Positions 2 to 34,678 of a DNA stretch of 34,678 nt are shown one piece after another. Each line of letters begins with the position of its first letter. Position 1 is the first letter of the stretch. The position numbers were made by a program, and so were the translations under genes. Source of the stretch: Bacteroidales bacterium (GTDB taxonomy: Bacteria; Bacteroidota; Bacteroidia; Bacteroidales; GCA-2748055); NCBI GenBank assembly GCA_023138875.1, contig JAGLOO010000056.1:1-34678 (forward strand). Direction: 5' to 3'. The notes under the pieces were generated by a model. It was not told the origin of the DNA. It made no database searches and saw only the letters and a program-made list of their open reading frames with translations.

Positions 2-1006
2 CCGACAGATAATGGCATCCTCAATGAAAGCCGCAAAAAGTGTGAGAAGCTTATCGATAAGCTCTATGAGCTGAATGGTAAGCAGGGTGTGAAGCCACGG
101 ACCTATCGCCGGAACCTGGATAAGGCTTATCTGTCATACTCGAAGAAAAAGAAGAAGAGCAAAGGGACTCACCGGAAGATGACACATAAACTACTGGAGG
201 CAGTCAACCGCAATATCAAGCACATCGACATTCTGCTGGATCTTTTTGAGATGAAAGGTGAACCGTTTCCTCTTCAACACTCCGAACAACGTTTGTTTTG
301 GGTCATCCGCACAGCGTACATGCAGCAGAAAATCATGTATGATAACAATACGCACAGCTGCCCGGATCGGATTGTGAGTATATATCAGCCCCATGTGCGG
401 CCAATTCCAAGAGGGAAAACTAAAGCACAGATTGAGTTCGGTCCAAAATTGGGAGCAGGTCTGGATCAGGGTTTTGCCCGTATCAATACCTTTAGTTGGG
501 ATGCGTATCATGAGGCTGGTGATCTGATACCACAAGTTGAAGACTATAAAGAATTACATGGACATTATCCTGAACTGGTTCTGGTGGATCAAATATATGC
601 TACAAGAGAGAACCGGCGTTGGCTAAAGGAAAGGGGCATTCGGATAACGGCACCACCACTGGGACGCCCGAAAGCGAAGACAAACCAGACCTATTATCAG
701 AAAAGGAAGGCCAGGAAAGAAGCCGCTGAAAGGAATCAAATTGAGGGCAAGTTCGGACAAGGTAAGAATGGGTACAACCTTAATGAGATCCGGGCCAGGC
801 TAAAAGAAACTTCAGAAAGCTGGATAGCATGTATCTTCTTTGTAATGAATTTGATACATTACGAGAAAACCTGTTTTTTTGGCTCAATTTTCAGGTGGCT
901 CAACGGTATAGGAGGAGCATTGGCTGCTATTTTCGAGTTACCAGTGGCTTTAATTGAGCTGAAATATCAAACCGATCGGAAATCGGGAAGATTACAATAT
1001 GGATAA
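2..1006 (+). CDS. IS5-type DDE transposase, 5' end outside window
   Basis: This is the C-terminal part of a cut-and-paste transposase. The frame is open from the first complete codon at base 2, so the gene begins upstream, and the GTG at 89 is only an internal codon. Family marks are the YATRENRRWLKERGI block, the APPLGRPK block and RNQIEGKFGQGKNGYNL, which carries the last catalytic acidic residue of the IS5/DDE_Tnp_1 fold. A hydrophobic tail follows. Only 11 bases separate the stop codon from an IS21-like terminus, and I see no IS5 right inverted repeat. The element's right end therefore seems to have been removed by, or to lie against, the IS21 element. The family call is confident; the subgroup (IS1182-like or another) is not. 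Confidence 0.85.
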   Translation, partial: PTDNGILNESRKKCEKLIDKLYELNGKQGVKPRTYRRNLDKAYLSYSKKKKKSKGTHRKMTHKLLEAVNRNIKHIDILLDLFEMKGEPFPLQHSEQRLFWVIRTAYMQQKIMYDNNTHSCPDRIVSIYQPHVRPIPRGKTKAQIEFGPKLGAGLDQGFARINTFSWDAYHEAGDLIPQVEDYKELHGHYPELVLVDQIYATRENRRWLKERGIRITAPPLGRPKAKTNQTYYQKRKARKEAAERNQIEGKFGQGKNGYNLNEIRARLKETSESWIACIFFVMNLIHYEKTCFFGSIFRWLNGIGGALAAIFELPVALIELKYQTDRKSGRLQYG

Positions 1007-1017
1007 ACTGACTTTAT

Positions 1018-1139: not shown

Positions 1140-1634
1140 TTACTTAATTTTTCTTAGTGAGTCTCCCATTAATTCTACTCTGTGAGCACCATTTACCAGT
1201 CGATCTAAAATTGCATCAGCCACGCTTCCTTCTCCAATTACATCATGCCACAGGCTTACCGGTAATTGTGAGCTGAGTATTGTTGATTTTAAACCATGCC
1301 TATCCTCGATTATTTCAAGGAAAGCCATCCTGTTCTGATCGTCCATTTGCTGAAGGCCGAAGTCATCAAGAATAAGAAGATCCATTTTCTCAATACGGTT
1401 TATCTCTCTCATATATGATCCATCTGCCTTGGACATTCTAAGCCTGGTAAAAAGTTTTTGTGTATTGAAGTATAGCACTTTAAATCCCTGGTGACAAGCC
1501 TGGTTTCCCAGGGCTGACGAGATAAACGATTTGCCCACACCAGCTGCTCCACCGCCAATAACGATATCAGCACTTGATCGGGAGAATTCTCTTTGAAATC
1601 CTTCCTGGAGGGTGAATTTGACAATGTTACTCAT
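1140..1634 (-). CDS. Chimeric ATPase: phage terminase large-subunit N-terminus fused in frame to IS21 IstB
   Basis: From the P-loop onward (about residue 33) this is an IS21 helper ATPase of the IstB/DnaC type: Walker A GAAGVGKSF, then ALGNQACHQGFKVLYFN, Walker B LLILDDFG, and a C-terminal IADAILDR-like block (SVADAILDRLVNGAHR). The roughly 100-residue IstB N-terminal domain is missing. In its place are about 30 residues (MSNIVKFTLQEGFQREF, then ADIVIGGGAAG) that look like the start of a phage terminase large subunit, whose own P-loop is usually GGAAGGGKSF. The ATG overlaps the stop of the terminase small subunit in ATGAGTAA, a typical terS-terL coupling that supports this start. IS21 ends follow downstream. 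The cross-over seems to lie in the P-loop codons shared by both families. It probably cannot serve IS21 transposition or packaging; a residual ATPase activity is possible. An assembly chimera is not excluded. Confidence 0.75.
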   Translation of the reverse strand: MSNIVKFTLQEGFQREFSRSSADIVIGGGAAGVGKSFISSALGNQACHQGFKVLYFNTQKLFTRLRMSKADGSYMREINRIEKMDLLILDDFGLQQMDDQNRMAFLEIIEDRHGLKSTILSSQLPVSLWHDVIGEGSVADAILDRLVNGAHRVELMGDSLRKIK

Positions 1635-2127
1635 CGTCCCGGGGCTCGAGGAATAAGATCCCCAATGGGGCGCCATCTACATTAAGCTTTCTGGGCGCCT
1701 CATATCCGAGCATCTTAACGATGCGATCGGTAGTCCAGGACTTGCCATGGAGTTTGAGCTCTATCCCATACTTAGTTTCCTTCACGCTTTCGACAGCTCG
1801 AAGCTGGGCCTCAGTGAGCTTCGAGAAGTCTTTGAGTGTCACAGAGCCTCCTTTTATTTCAATGTAGTCGGAGATCTTCGCTTCCATGATGGCCTCGAGC
1901 TCGAAGAGGACTCTCTCCTTTTTGATATCGGAGGTTTCCTTAAGCTCATTTTTGATCTCGTTGAGTCTTACCGCAACCTTACCGTGTTTCAAAAGCTCTG
2001 ATGCCTTCACATTTATTGTGGCCTCCTTCATCCGACCACATGAATAAGATTGCCGATATGCCTCTGATGCATTACCAGTTTCCATATAGGCATGGCAGAA
2101 CTTTTCCTGTTTTGGTGTGAGTCCCAT
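1627..2127 (-). CDS. Phage terminase small subunit
   Basis: The small terminase subunit recognises phage DNA for packaging and hands it to the large ATPase/nuclease subunit. The N-terminus MGLTPKQEKFCHAYMETGN followed by ASEAYRQSY is the typical Terminase_2 helix-turn-helix start. The middle is helical and charged, and the C-terminus is a short acidic tail, PRDDE. The protein is 166 residues, normal for the family. I chose the ATG at 2127; a TTG seven codons upstream sits right against a terminator hairpin. Its stop overlaps the next ATG by 8 nt, so the original terS-terL junction survives, but the terL beyond it is now IstB. No portal or capsid genes are nearby, so this is a prophage relic. 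Confidence 0.85.
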   Translation of the reverse strand: MGLTPKQEKFCHAYMETGNASEAYRQSYSCGRMKEATINVKASELLKHGKVAVRLNEIKNELKETSDIKKERVLFELEAIMEAKISDYIEIKGGSVTLKDFSKLTEAQLRAVESVKETKYGIELKLHGKSWTTDRIVKMLGYEAPRKLNVDGAPLGILFLEPRDDE

Positions 2128-2146
2128 ATTGTAAAATATATGGCAC

Positions 2147-2177
2147 AAAAAAAACCCTGGTATTGACCAGGGATTTT
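2147..2177 (-). terminator. Rho-independent terminator
   Basis: A perfect 6-bp stem, CCCTGG with CCAGGG, and a 6-nt loop are followed on the minus strand by eight T residues. It lies downstream of the outer-membrane protein gene (2263-2913) and ends about 20 nt before the terminase small subunit start. That gene is thereby insulated and has almost no room for its own promoter. Confidence 0.75.
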
Positions 2178-3053: not shown

Positions 3054-4172
3054 TCAGTCTATCATTAGACTTACCGATGAACCAGATCCCGCAAAAAATC
3101 CTTCATTCAAAGTTATACTGTTAGTGGCAATTACAGCAAGTTGATCGCTCGCTTGAATTTGGTATGTACAATCAAATTCCACTGTTTCCCCGATGATGGT
3201 ATTATAAACTTCATCGTCCAAAGGATATTGATTGGAATTTGTTATTATTACACTGGACAAGGGAGATTTTTCGTAATATCTTACCCAATCTACAGACATT
3301 TGACTTGGAAAAGTAGTTGTAGCATCTGGAGAGTCAGCACCGCTTTGAATTGCAAAATTGAATATTATGCGCATTGGATCTTGTGGGAATAGGTCATTCA
3401 TCAGATAAGGGGTCCATGCTACTATGTCACATTCAACAGGGTCAGACATATTTTCATGATATCGATAATCTGTCCTCTTTAAATTACCATTAACATACCA
3501 TTCGAGTATATTTGGTTCCCATTTTAGTGAAAAAATAAAATAATCTTGAGAAAAGTCATCATCCAGATAGCTAGAGTTACACATTGAAGGATCGCCATCT
3601 GCATCATGGTCATAATGTATTGTCATATTATGGACACGTGAGTTCCTACCAGACATATATATTCCTGCAAAATACTCATTCCAGAATTCAAAAATATCTA
3701 TTTCATTGGTAACTGGATCACCTCCATGGAGCCAAAATGCTGGCCAAAATCCTTTACCTTTAGGTATTTGTACACGAGCTTCAAAAATGCCATGGGAGAA
3801 TTTCTTGATTGTCTCAAAGTTTGCAGAAGTAAAATAAAAGTTCCTTTCATTTCGACCTCTATTTTCGTCGTCACAATAAAGATCCTCATTTGGTGGTGTA
3901 CCATCTTCTGCACGAGCAAATATTGTCTCCTCTTTTGCAACTAAATGGATTGCATCATTACTAAATTCTAAATTGTCACCTTCAGTATAATACTGTTGCT
4001 CATCATTACAATATCGTATCCTATCTCTGTATTGCCAATCATTTAGATTCAAATCACTTCCTTGGAATTCATCTTCGAATACAAGGATGTAGGAATCATT
4101 ATTGCATAGATCGATCGATCCATTACGGTTGAAACGCTTCTTACTCCTACAAATGCCTCGATTACTGATCAC
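3054..4172 (-). CDS. GH16 beta-glucanase (laminarinase-like), 5'-truncated
   Basis: This is a family 16 glycoside hydrolase, a retaining endo-beta-glucanase probably acting on laminarin-type beta-1,3-glucans. Homology starts near residue 29 (ILVFEDEFQGSDLNLNDWQ) and runs to DWVRYYEK near residue 300. The catalytic signature is NEIDIFEFW, with E157 (nucleophile), D159 and E162 (acid/base). FWPAFWLHGG and MRIIFNFAIQ are typical GH16 strands. A small C-terminal module ends in ITLNEGFFAGSGSS, a stack motif common on secreted Bacteroidota proteins. The first 25 or so residues (MISNRGICRSKKRF and onward) are not a signal peptide and are antisense to the tail-fibre remnant at 4125-4316. The true 5' end, including the export signal, therefore seems lost, although the active site is intact. 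It is probably a pseudogene or a mislocalised enzyme. Confidence 0.8.
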   Translation of the reverse strand: MISNRGICRSKKRFNRNGSIDLCNNDSYILVFEDEFQGSDLNLNDWQYRDRIRYCNDEQQYYTEGDNLEFSNDAIHLVAKEETIFARAEDGTPPNEDLYCDDENRGRNERNFYFTSANFETIKKFSHGIFEARVQIPKGKGFWPAFWLHGGDPVTNEIDIFEFWNEYFAGIYMSGRNSRVHNMTIHYDHDADGDPSMCNSSYLDDDFSQDYFIFSLKWEPNILEWYVNGNLKRTDYRYHENMSDPVECDIVAWTPYLMNDLFPQDPMRIIFNFAIQSGADSPDATTTFPSQMSVDWVRYYEKSPLSSVIITNSNQYPLDDEVYNTIIGETVEFDCTYQIQASDQLAVIATNSITLNEGFFAGSGSSVSLMID

Positions 4173-4316
4173 CTTTCAAGGATCCAGGCTCTCGAAGCGT
4201 TGCCGATTCCTGCAACTGACCATGGAGCTCTTACCGGACTGGGAGACGATGATCATCCGTATTACTACAACCTGGCTAGACTCACATCTTGGTTCGGTAC
4301 CCCCCCCTGGAATTAG
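4125..4316 (+). pseudogene. Phage tail-fibre fragment
   Basis: Translation in the frame of base 4125 gives a short open stretch containing ETLLTPTNASITDHLSRI and then TDHGALTGLGDDDHPYYYN. The HGALxGLGDDDHPxY motif is a hallmark of phage tail-fibre and collar proteins. The frame is closed by a TAG at 4107-4109 upstream and by a TAG at 4314 just after a run of eight C residues. There is no start codon, so this is an internal piece. It overlaps the 5' end of the GH16 reading frame on the other strand, and only one of the two can be original there. Confidence 0.7.
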
Positions 4317-4399
4317 GGTTTTTTCGTTTTCGAACCTTTGCAATACCTCGAACATTCCGCTATCACCCTTATAACATCCTGATTACCAAGCTACATTTG

Positions 4400-4472
4400 A
4401 GCCTCTCACGGGACTCGAACCCGCGACCTGTTCATTACGAATGAACTGCTCTACCAGCTGAGCTAAAGAGGC
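4400..4472 (-). tRNA. tRNA-Thr(CGT)
   Basis: The cloverleaf can be read on the minus strand. The acceptor stem is GCCTCTT with GAGAGGC, the D arm GCTC/GAGC, the anticodon stem GTTCA/TGAAC with loop TTCGTAA (anticodon CGT), and the T arm GCGGG TTCGAGT CCCGT. No CCA is encoded. Its 3' end faces the phage and IS debris at 1-4316, the orientation expected if an element integrated into the tRNA 3' end. Confidence 0.95.
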
Positions 4473-32700: not shown

Positions 32701-34678
32701 CTATTCCTTAATAATCCGTGATACGCCATTCATTTGGTCAGTATCAATATGTATCAGGTAAACACCAGTTTCAAACCGGCTGACATCAAGATCTGTTTTG
32801 GTCAATTTCAGCATCCTTTTTACTACTACCGTCTGACCAATGATATTTACAACCTTTATAGTAGCATTGGTATTCTCAAATCCCATATCGATGGTTAAGA
32901 ATTCCTCTGCTGGCATAGGATATACCTTAAAATCCTGATGCCCACCATTTTTACCAAGTCCTGATATGGTCAGCATCAGACAATCCGAAGTGTCTGTACA
33001 TTCACCTTGCGTTACAATCACAGCATACTCTCCATTTTCAGTGGGTGTAAAAGTACTTTCAGTTTGACCAGCTATTATGGAATTATCCGCACAATTGATC
33101 CACTGATAAGTCCCTATTGTTTCAACTATTAACGAATTCTCCACAATGGATACAGAAATATCTCCAACCACACTATTGGTAACAGAAACTACACATTGAC
33201 TGCTATTTCCATTTCCATCATCGATGGTATAGGTAACGGTAGTTACTCCGGGATTAAATATCTCCCCGCTCGCATCACCTGTTCCGCTACCTGTCGTTGC
33301 ACCCGATAAATCAAAGGTAACTGCTGGTATAGTGCAATTATCCGTCACATTGGTTAAGCCGATTGAATTTACAAATCCATCGCACGTAATAACATCTTCA
33401 GGACAAGTTGCTGAGGGGGCGGTTACATCCTCAATTACAACGTTCTGAGCTACAGTAATGCTGTTTCCGCTCGCATCGGTAAAGGTCCAGTTTATGACAT
33501 GTGTTCCTTGAGTTGAATAGGTCAAATCATCTGTAGTTGTACCTGTTATGGGACCTGCACATGCATCATTAATTATTGGAGCAACAGCAGTAGCAGAACA
33601 TTCTCCTAGTACATCTGCCAGTTCAGGATCTTCAGGAGGTGATACATCATCAATAATAACATTCTGAGTTACCGTGATGCTGTTACCGTTTCCATCGTCA
33701 AAGGTCCAGGTTATTACATGGATACCCTGGATGGAATAGGTCAACGCATCCGTTGTGGTTCCTGTGATGGTTCCCGAACATGCATCGGTTGTTGTAGGAG
33801 CCACAGCTGTTGCAGTACATTCACCGGTCATATCGGTCAGCGTTGGGATCAATGGAGCTGTCACATCATCAATAACCACATTTTGAGTAGCAGTTGTACT
33901 GTTTCCATTTCCATCATCAAAGGTCCATGTAATCACGTGGATGCCCTGAGTAGAATAGGTTAATGCATCCGTCGTCGTACCTGTAATAGTTCCTGCACAT
34001 GCATCTGTGGTGGTTGGAGCCACTGCCGTTGCTGAACATTCCCCGGTCACATCTGTCAGTGTTGGTGTCACTGGTGGTGTCACATCATCAATCACCACAT
34101 TCTGAGCAGCAGAAGTGCTGTTTCCATTCCCATCGTCAAAGGTCCAGGTAATCACATGTGTACCTTGTGTTGAATAAGTCATTGCGTCGGTAGTGGTTCC
34201 TGTAATGATTCCCGCACATGCATCTGTTGTGGTTGGAGCCACTGCCGTTGCTGAACATTCCCCGGTCACATCTGTCAGTGTTGGTGTCACTGGTGGTGTC
34301 ACATCATCAATCACCACATTCTGAGCAGCAGAAGTGCTGTTTCCATTCCCATCGTCAAAGGTCCAGGTAATCACATGTGTACCTTGTGTTGAATAAGTCA
34401 TTGCGTCGGTAGTGGTTCCTGTAATGGTTCCCGCACATGCATCTGTTGTGGTTGGAGCCACTGCGGTTGCGGTACATTCCCCGGTCACATCTGCCAGTGT
34501 TGGAGTCACAGGAGGGGTCACATCATCAATCACTACATTCTGAGCAGCAGAAGTGCTGTTCCCGTTCCCATCGTCAAAGCTCCAGGTAATCACATGGGTG
34601 CCTTGTGTTGAATAAGTCAAAGCATCGGTTGTTGTGCCTGTAATGGTTCCTGAACATGCATCTGTGGTGGTTGGAGCC
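32701..34678 (-). CDS. HYR-repeat surface protein with T9SS type A sorting domain, N-terminus outside window
   Basis: The coding frame is open to the right edge, so the start is missing; the first codon of the open stretch is not a start. In the window there are five full tandem units of 73 residues and one partial, each with GEC, TTTDAC, GTHVITWTFDDGNGNS and VVIDDVTPP. They resemble HYR/Ig-like modules, with one conserved Cys pair per unit and an Asp/Asn-rich loop that could bind calcium. A more canonical HYR domain follows (TAPSATCPEDVITC to YTIDDGNGNSSQCVVSV), then an Ig-like unit ending near CTDTSDCLMLTISG. Last comes a T9SS sorting domain (VYPMPAEEFLTID to ETGVYLIHI), which directs export and surface anchoring. 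Adhesin or structural roles are likely. Confidence 0.88.
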   Translation of the reverse strand, partial: APTTTDACSGTITGTTTDALTYSTQGTHVITWSFDDGNGNSTSAAQNVVIDDVTPPVTPTLADVTGECTATAVAPTTTDACAGTITGTTTDAMTYSTQGTHVITWTFDDGNGNSTSAAQNVVIDDVTPPVTPTLTDVTGECSATAVAPTTTDACAGIITGTTTDAMTYSTQGTHVITWTFDDGNGNSTSAAQNVVIDDVTPPVTPTLTDVTGECSATAVAPTTTDACAGTITGTTTDALTYSTQGIHVITWTFDDGNGNSTTATQNVVIDDVTAPLIPTLTDMTGECTATAVAPTTTDACSGTITGTTTDALTYSIQGIHVITWTFDDGNGNSITVTQNVIIDDVSPPEDPELADVLGECSATAVAPIINDACAGPITGTTTDDLTYSTQGTHVINWTFTDASGNSITVAQNVVIEDVTAPSATCPEDVITCDGFVNSIGLTNVTDNCTIPAVTFDLSGATTGSGTGDASGEIFNPGVTTVTYTIDDGNGNSSQCVVSVTNSVVGDISVSIVENSLIVETIGTYQWINCADNSIIAGQTESTFTPTENGEYAVIVTQGECTDTSDCLMLTISGLGKNGGHQDFKVYPMPAEEFLTIDMGFENTNATIKVVNIIGQTVVVKRMLKLTKTDLDVSRFETGVYLIHIDTDQMNGVSRIIKE
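34010..34426. repeat. Near-identical adjacent 219-nt tandem repeat units
   Basis: Bases 34010-34207 and 34229-34426 are identical over 198 nt at a period of 219 nt, with single mismatches just outside. Units further toward the C-terminus (33560-33990) keep the protein pattern but differ at many bases. Confidence 0.85.

Follow-up and report, generated by a model that had tools for sequence, protein, structure and literature searches.

The described systems closest to the gene analyzed here are IstB, the AAA+ ATPase of IS21, and the phage terminase large subunit, TerL. According to the published account cited here (PMC11208146), the IstB decamer is built from dimers formed by the N-terminal domains, and self-assembly needs these domains as well as the AAA+ module. 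On the phage side, our main point of comparison is an IMG/VR contig (L013) in which the gene after terS, the terminase small subunit gene, encodes a TerL of 516 aa and overlaps terS by ATGAGTGA.

The stretch of DNA studied (the window) is the complete contig C52, 34,678 bases long, of a draft Bacteroidales genome with 87 contigs. A preliminary description, made from the letters of the window, had claimed that the first 30 or so residues of an ORF near the contig start, together with its overlap with terS, are of the TerL type, that everything from the P-loop on is of the IstB type, that the frame is open across the joint, and that recombination in the shared P-loop had given birth to a hybrid ATPase driven by phage translation signals. 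Here we compare both parts of the ORF with their relatives and weigh how the fusion might have arisen.

Composition and predicted fold of the fusion

The fusion ORF (positions 1140 to 1634, minus strand) encodes 164 aa from a terL-type start, the ATG at 1634; an upstream in-frame ATG at 1676 would extend it to 178 aa (1676 to 1140, minus strand). Alignments of the assembled sequence confirm a TerL/IstB chimera joined at corresponding P-loop codons. It consists of a TerL-derived N terminus (residues 1 to 32, through GGGAAG; 1539 to 1634, minus strand), assigned by identity and alignment to the L013 TerL, and an IstB-derived part from V33 to the stop (1140 to 1538, minus strand), an AAA+ core that lacks the N-terminal domain. 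Between them lies a joint zone of shared Walker A codons, G32 V33 G34 K35 S36 F37 (1524 to 1541, minus strand), which was delimited with the IstB and TerL alignments and across which the frame runs open from 1541 to 1524, as first described.

The TerL parentage of the N terminus, also as first described, is borne out by several comparisons. Residues 10 to 32 are identical to the L013 TerL at 17 of 23 positions (47 of 69 nt), and ADIVIGGGAAG is common to the fusion and all three distinct TerL proteins compared. When the whole L013 TerL was searched against the fusion's own genome, its sole match was the fusion piece (68% over L013 residues 8 to 38; E = 9.7 × 10−6), and the TerL body was not found elsewhere in that genome with this query. 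Searched with the 51-aa N-terminal piece, which takes in the P-loop, PHROG gave the TerL family phrog_979 (E = 3 × 10−4); Pfam and the phages collection gave no match for the same piece. The TerL N-terminal strand and Walker A are present in the fusion, and in the alignment the homology stops at the P-loop, the full ATPase and nuclease body being absent.

The gene in front is terS (1627 to 2148, minus strand; Pfam Terminase_2, E = 4 × 10−23), which is listed from a TTG and has its first ATG at 2127. Its product is 58% identical to the L013 TerS, and its stop overlaps the fusion ATG by 8 nt (ATGAGTAA), equivalent to the overlap in L013. This TerS recovered 181 records from the phages collection, all distant among the matches listed, the first-listed being 37% identical over 92%. 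Across 295 genomes of the order, only 4 gave a match, one being the fusion's own genome and the other three showing 26 to 31% identity.

The remainder belongs to IstB from the V of GAAG-VGKSF onward, and Pfam IstB_IS21 matches the fusion with an E value of 7 × 10−40 over profile positions 87 to 232 of 238. The best relative, from Segetibacter (L024), is 73% identical. GAAGVGKS and LLILDDFG, which we take to be the Walker A and Walker B motifs, are both present in the IstB alignment, and 38 of the 40 columns invariant in nine IstB relatives are kept, and the remaining two carry F for L and S for T. The N-terminal dimerization domain is missing, as seen both from the start of the profile match at position 87 and from the alignment gaps, and the gene directly upstream is terS, not istA.

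The best of five AlphaFold models of the fusion has a mean pLDDT of 71 and a pTM of 0.70, and the other four models reach 46 to 58. In the best model residues 1 to 18 fall below a pLDDT of 50, and the TerL-derived strand (residues 23 to 28) precedes the P-loop; among solved structures, the model comes closest in fold to the IstB AAA+ domain (PDB code 5bq5; TM score of 0.76). The predicted AAA+ core is coherent in the best of the five models. If translated, the product would be coupled to terS and would probably be an AAA+ core that serves neither transposition nor packaging.

Whether IstB proteins might naturally carry such an N terminus was assessed from the relatives that we aligned or read, and the idea was rejected, as none of them carries it. 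Of 15 translated istB loci, 9 are full length with the usual N-terminal domain, 2 are incomplete but keep the domain (L033 and L034), and 2 lack everything before the P-loop and have different sequence there (L029 and L035); L005 and L006 stand outside these tallies, L005 being full length on a separate reading. No second instance of the fusion turned up among the near relatives searched, which were 27 further family genomes, viral contigs, and 12 genome-contig loci matching the IstB part.

Position of the joint

The alignments place the switch from TerL to IstB between G32 and I38 (window 1541 to 1524). Of 9 aligned IstB copies, 8 have V at the position of V33, where the three TerL sequences carry A or S; the GGT codon of G32, or the point immediately past it, is therefore the simplest breakpoint. 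Either parent could have supplied the codons for G34, K35, and S36. A larger comparison of P-loop DNA took in the 36 IstB copies that fit the P-loop pattern (L027, L029, L033, L035, and others were left out, L047 was omitted as a repeat of L043, and L030 and L031 are identical in this region); by reading, 10 of these 36 have V at this position, and the rest have I, T, C, or S. Set in register against the three TerL copies, they give 108 pairs, whose identical runs have a median of 4 nt and a maximum of 9 nt. Shared runs of this kind would be long enough for microhomology, short of proving it, and the exact overlap at the joint cannot be shown, since no close parental copies were found.

Gene neighborhood

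Downstream of the fusion lies an IS21 right-end region (1018 to 1139) with two copies of a 21-nt repeat and a likely terminus TG at 1018. By eye, the element end in L026 has similar repeats and the same terminus, and an 11-nt end motif is shared with both L025 and L026; the ends that follow istB in L024, L027, and a remnant on contig C42 of the same genome look different. The IS21 end starts 11 nt past the stop of an IS5-like DDE transposase gene near the contig start (89 to 1006, plus strand; Pfam DDE_Tnp_1_2). Window positions 297 to 1017 match a second IS5-like copy (G000:C42:125183-125903) at 89%. Because this homology ends at 1017, beyond which the C42 copy continues with different sequence, IS21 appears to have inserted at or inside the IS5-like end.

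On the other side, a terminator-like hairpin followed by 8 T (2155 to 2172, minus strand; a consensus match only) lies just upstream of terS. Promoter-like sites occur at chance level (12 versus 11.7 expected) in a sigma-70 scan, other promoter types being outside its scope, and the best such site falls within the istB part. Farther upstream come a gene with a weak, below-cutoff match to an outer-membrane barrel, a GH16 gene, and then a tRNA-Thr (CGT) gene (4399 to 4472, minus strand; RNA scan). The tRNA is a possible prophage attachment site; no second copy of a 23-nt piece of it, sought as an attR, was found in the genome. A search of the genome for an L013-type portal protein, run without a positive control, gave no match. 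The idea that the joint holds a group II intron or another known RNA was rejected, since Rfam scanning of the window and of L029 and L035 recovered only the tRNA.

Two other ORFs of the window were recorded in passing. An open stretch (4131 to 4313, plus strand) that contains ...ATDHGALTGLGDDDHPYYYN... lies between the tRNA-Thr and GH16 genes and overlaps the listed GH16 start; it presumably resembles a phage tail protein, and a PHROG search with it gave no match. Near the far contig end is a large ORF that looks like a surface protein (32701 to 34620, minus strand), in which a unit of about 73 aa can be seen by eye to recur several times almost unchanged.

Truncated istB copies and the missing halves

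A class-wide istB scan covered 395 genomes, including the fusion's own, at E ≤ 10−15 with at most seven candidates per genome scored. By hand count, query residue 100 or a later one is the starting point of 20 of its 93 matches. The fusion's own genome supplies three of these, the fusion included; in at least three others a contig end removes the 5' side, and one more represents half of an apparently frame-shifted gene. Their start points are scattered from 100 to 186 with no evident pile-up at the P-loop. One copy (G488:C17) starts at the same V as the fusion and was considered as a P-loop hot-spot case; this case was weakened, the copy being decayed and devoid of a recognizable P-loop.

In the fusion's own genome, further istB remnants lie on contigs C42 and C59. 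No close IstB N terminus for the fusion was found elsewhere in it: the sole clear N-terminal piece, on C42, belongs to another IS21 type, matching the L004 IstB at 110 of 120 residues and that of L024 at 49 of 119. That istB of a different type itself breaks off shortly past the P-loop (L043:1483-1935), and an opposite-strand ORF next to it resembles, by eye, a tyrosine recombinase. Nor was a close IstA found in the genome, the matches being two pieces of 35 to 36% identity on C47. A reciprocal product, combining an IstB head with a TerL body, was sought in the same genome and rejected, as none was found.

Origin of the fusion

We consider it very likely that the fusion is a deletion scar in a decayed prophage and that its product is a pseudogene. 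IS21 would have sat downstream of terL in the prophage, at or inside the IS5-like end, with istB co-oriented with terL. One illegitimate recombination would then have joined corresponding P-loop codons of the two genes; the deletion would have taken the terL remainder, the IS21 left end, istA, and the istB segment for the N-terminal part, along with anything that separated terL from the element, leaving in frame terS, 32 terL codons, and the last ~132 istB codons. The recombination at the shared P-loop claimed in the preliminary description is thereby retained in part, in that the joint does lie at corresponding codons and the terS overlap is kept.

Both parentages, the strand and order of the pieces, the IS21 right end, the failure to find the removed pieces elsewhere in the assembly, and the frequency of istB matches devoid of the 5' part speak for a scar; terS, the terL head, and istB are all on the minus strand, in an order that fits a simple deletion. 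Counting against it, the P-loop codons of the two genes meet exactly in register, with the frame preserved. Guidance of the deletion by short P-loop identity would explain both, and we infer this guidance, as we do the single event and the pseudogene status. Further points against are the coherence of the predicted core and the lack of close parental copies among our searches. Signs of decay in the IstB part are few, with 38 of 40 columns kept, so that either the event is recent or the frame is maintained by something; the scar is probably recent and silent.

An assembly chimera, in which separate prophage terL and IS21 istB loci were misjoined at their shared P-loop, is an unlikely source of the joint. 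The joint does lie 1.5 to 1.6 kb from the end of a draft contig, beside an IS5-like neighbor that has a second copy in the genome, and exactly within the motif common to both genes. However, the longest in-register run shared by TerL and IstB among the 108 pairs, which are relatives and not the parents themselves, is 9 nt, and usual assembler word lengths far exceed this. The other halves were likewise not found elsewhere in the assembly, from which, as a draft, repeats may be missing.

Much less probable still is a functional hybrid ATPase, in which TerL β1 and the first half of the TerL P-loop would replace those of IstB in a terS-coupled protein with a selected role. The open frame, the presence of Walker A and Walker B, the 38 conserved columns, the coherent core predicted in the best model, and the retained terS overlap would all suit such a protein. 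Against these stand the lack of an N-terminal domain and of a close IstA partner, the failure to see the fusion among the relatives searched, the hairpin resembling a terminator in front of terS, and a number of promoter-like sites that does not exceed chance in the sigma-70 scan. A functional hybrid ATPase is thus not supported, and neither is the newly born working ATPase of the preliminary description: the product has neither the IstB N-terminal domain nor the TerL body, it lies in IS and prophage wreckage, the same fusion was not seen among the relatives searched, and 5'-truncated istB copies are common. A joint would in any case keep the frame with a chance of 1 in 3.

The chance is comparably slim that the istB P-loop codons are a preferred site of breakage or insertion, at which an element entered and later left, uniting terL and istB. 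This idea draws on two other MAG contigs, L029 and L035, in which istB begins exactly at VGKSF. Both carry the same 20-nt palindrome, ATATGTAAATCTTTACATAT (L029:243-262 and L035:2980-2999), with istB one base after it, and L035 also has an IS91-like transposase upstream of istB, as well as an integrase. Yet no such palindrome was seen by eye around the window joint, the 18-nt palindrome core occurs once per MAG genome and thus was not seen as a repeated element end, and the start points of the other istB remnants are scattered. The istB parts of L029 and L035 are identical at 104 of 126 nt and may descend from one event, so that their palindrome-istB junction may represent either one old insertion or a preferred site.

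The least probable reading of all is that recombination from P-loop to P-loop made a compact, terS-coupled IstB that has no N-terminal domain and takes its first strand from TerL; released from dimerization, this AAA+ protein could interfere dominantly with IS21 or with packaging by related phages.

Comparison with known systems

Read as a deletion scar, the locus illustrates neatly how the decay of mobile elements can generate in-frame chimeras where genes share a short conserved motif. It also warns that annotation may present such an ORF as a normal IstB or helicase loader. If the product did function, the locus would be a rare instance in which a domain swap at the P-loop has been caught.

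Three kinds of described genes bear comparison with it. IS21 remnants that have decayed to the 3' part of istB show the same kind of truncation, both elsewhere in the class and at two further places in this genome (C42 and C59); in the fusion, by contrast, the upstream partner is the recognizable beginning of a gene, read in the same frame. With phage TerL of the L013 type (phrog_979) the fusion has in common its opening 32 residues, among them GFQxxF...ADIVIGGGAAG, and the overlap of 8 nt with terS; unlike in TerL, homology in the fusion ends at Walker A, without the remaining ATPase and the nuclease. IstB, the IS21 AAA+ ATPase (PF01695; PDB codes 5bq5 and 8q3w), corresponds to the fusion from the V of the P-loop to the C terminus; in contrast to it, the fusion lacks profile positions 1 to 86, the N-terminal dimerization domain among them, and has no istA upstream, a phage terS standing in front instead.
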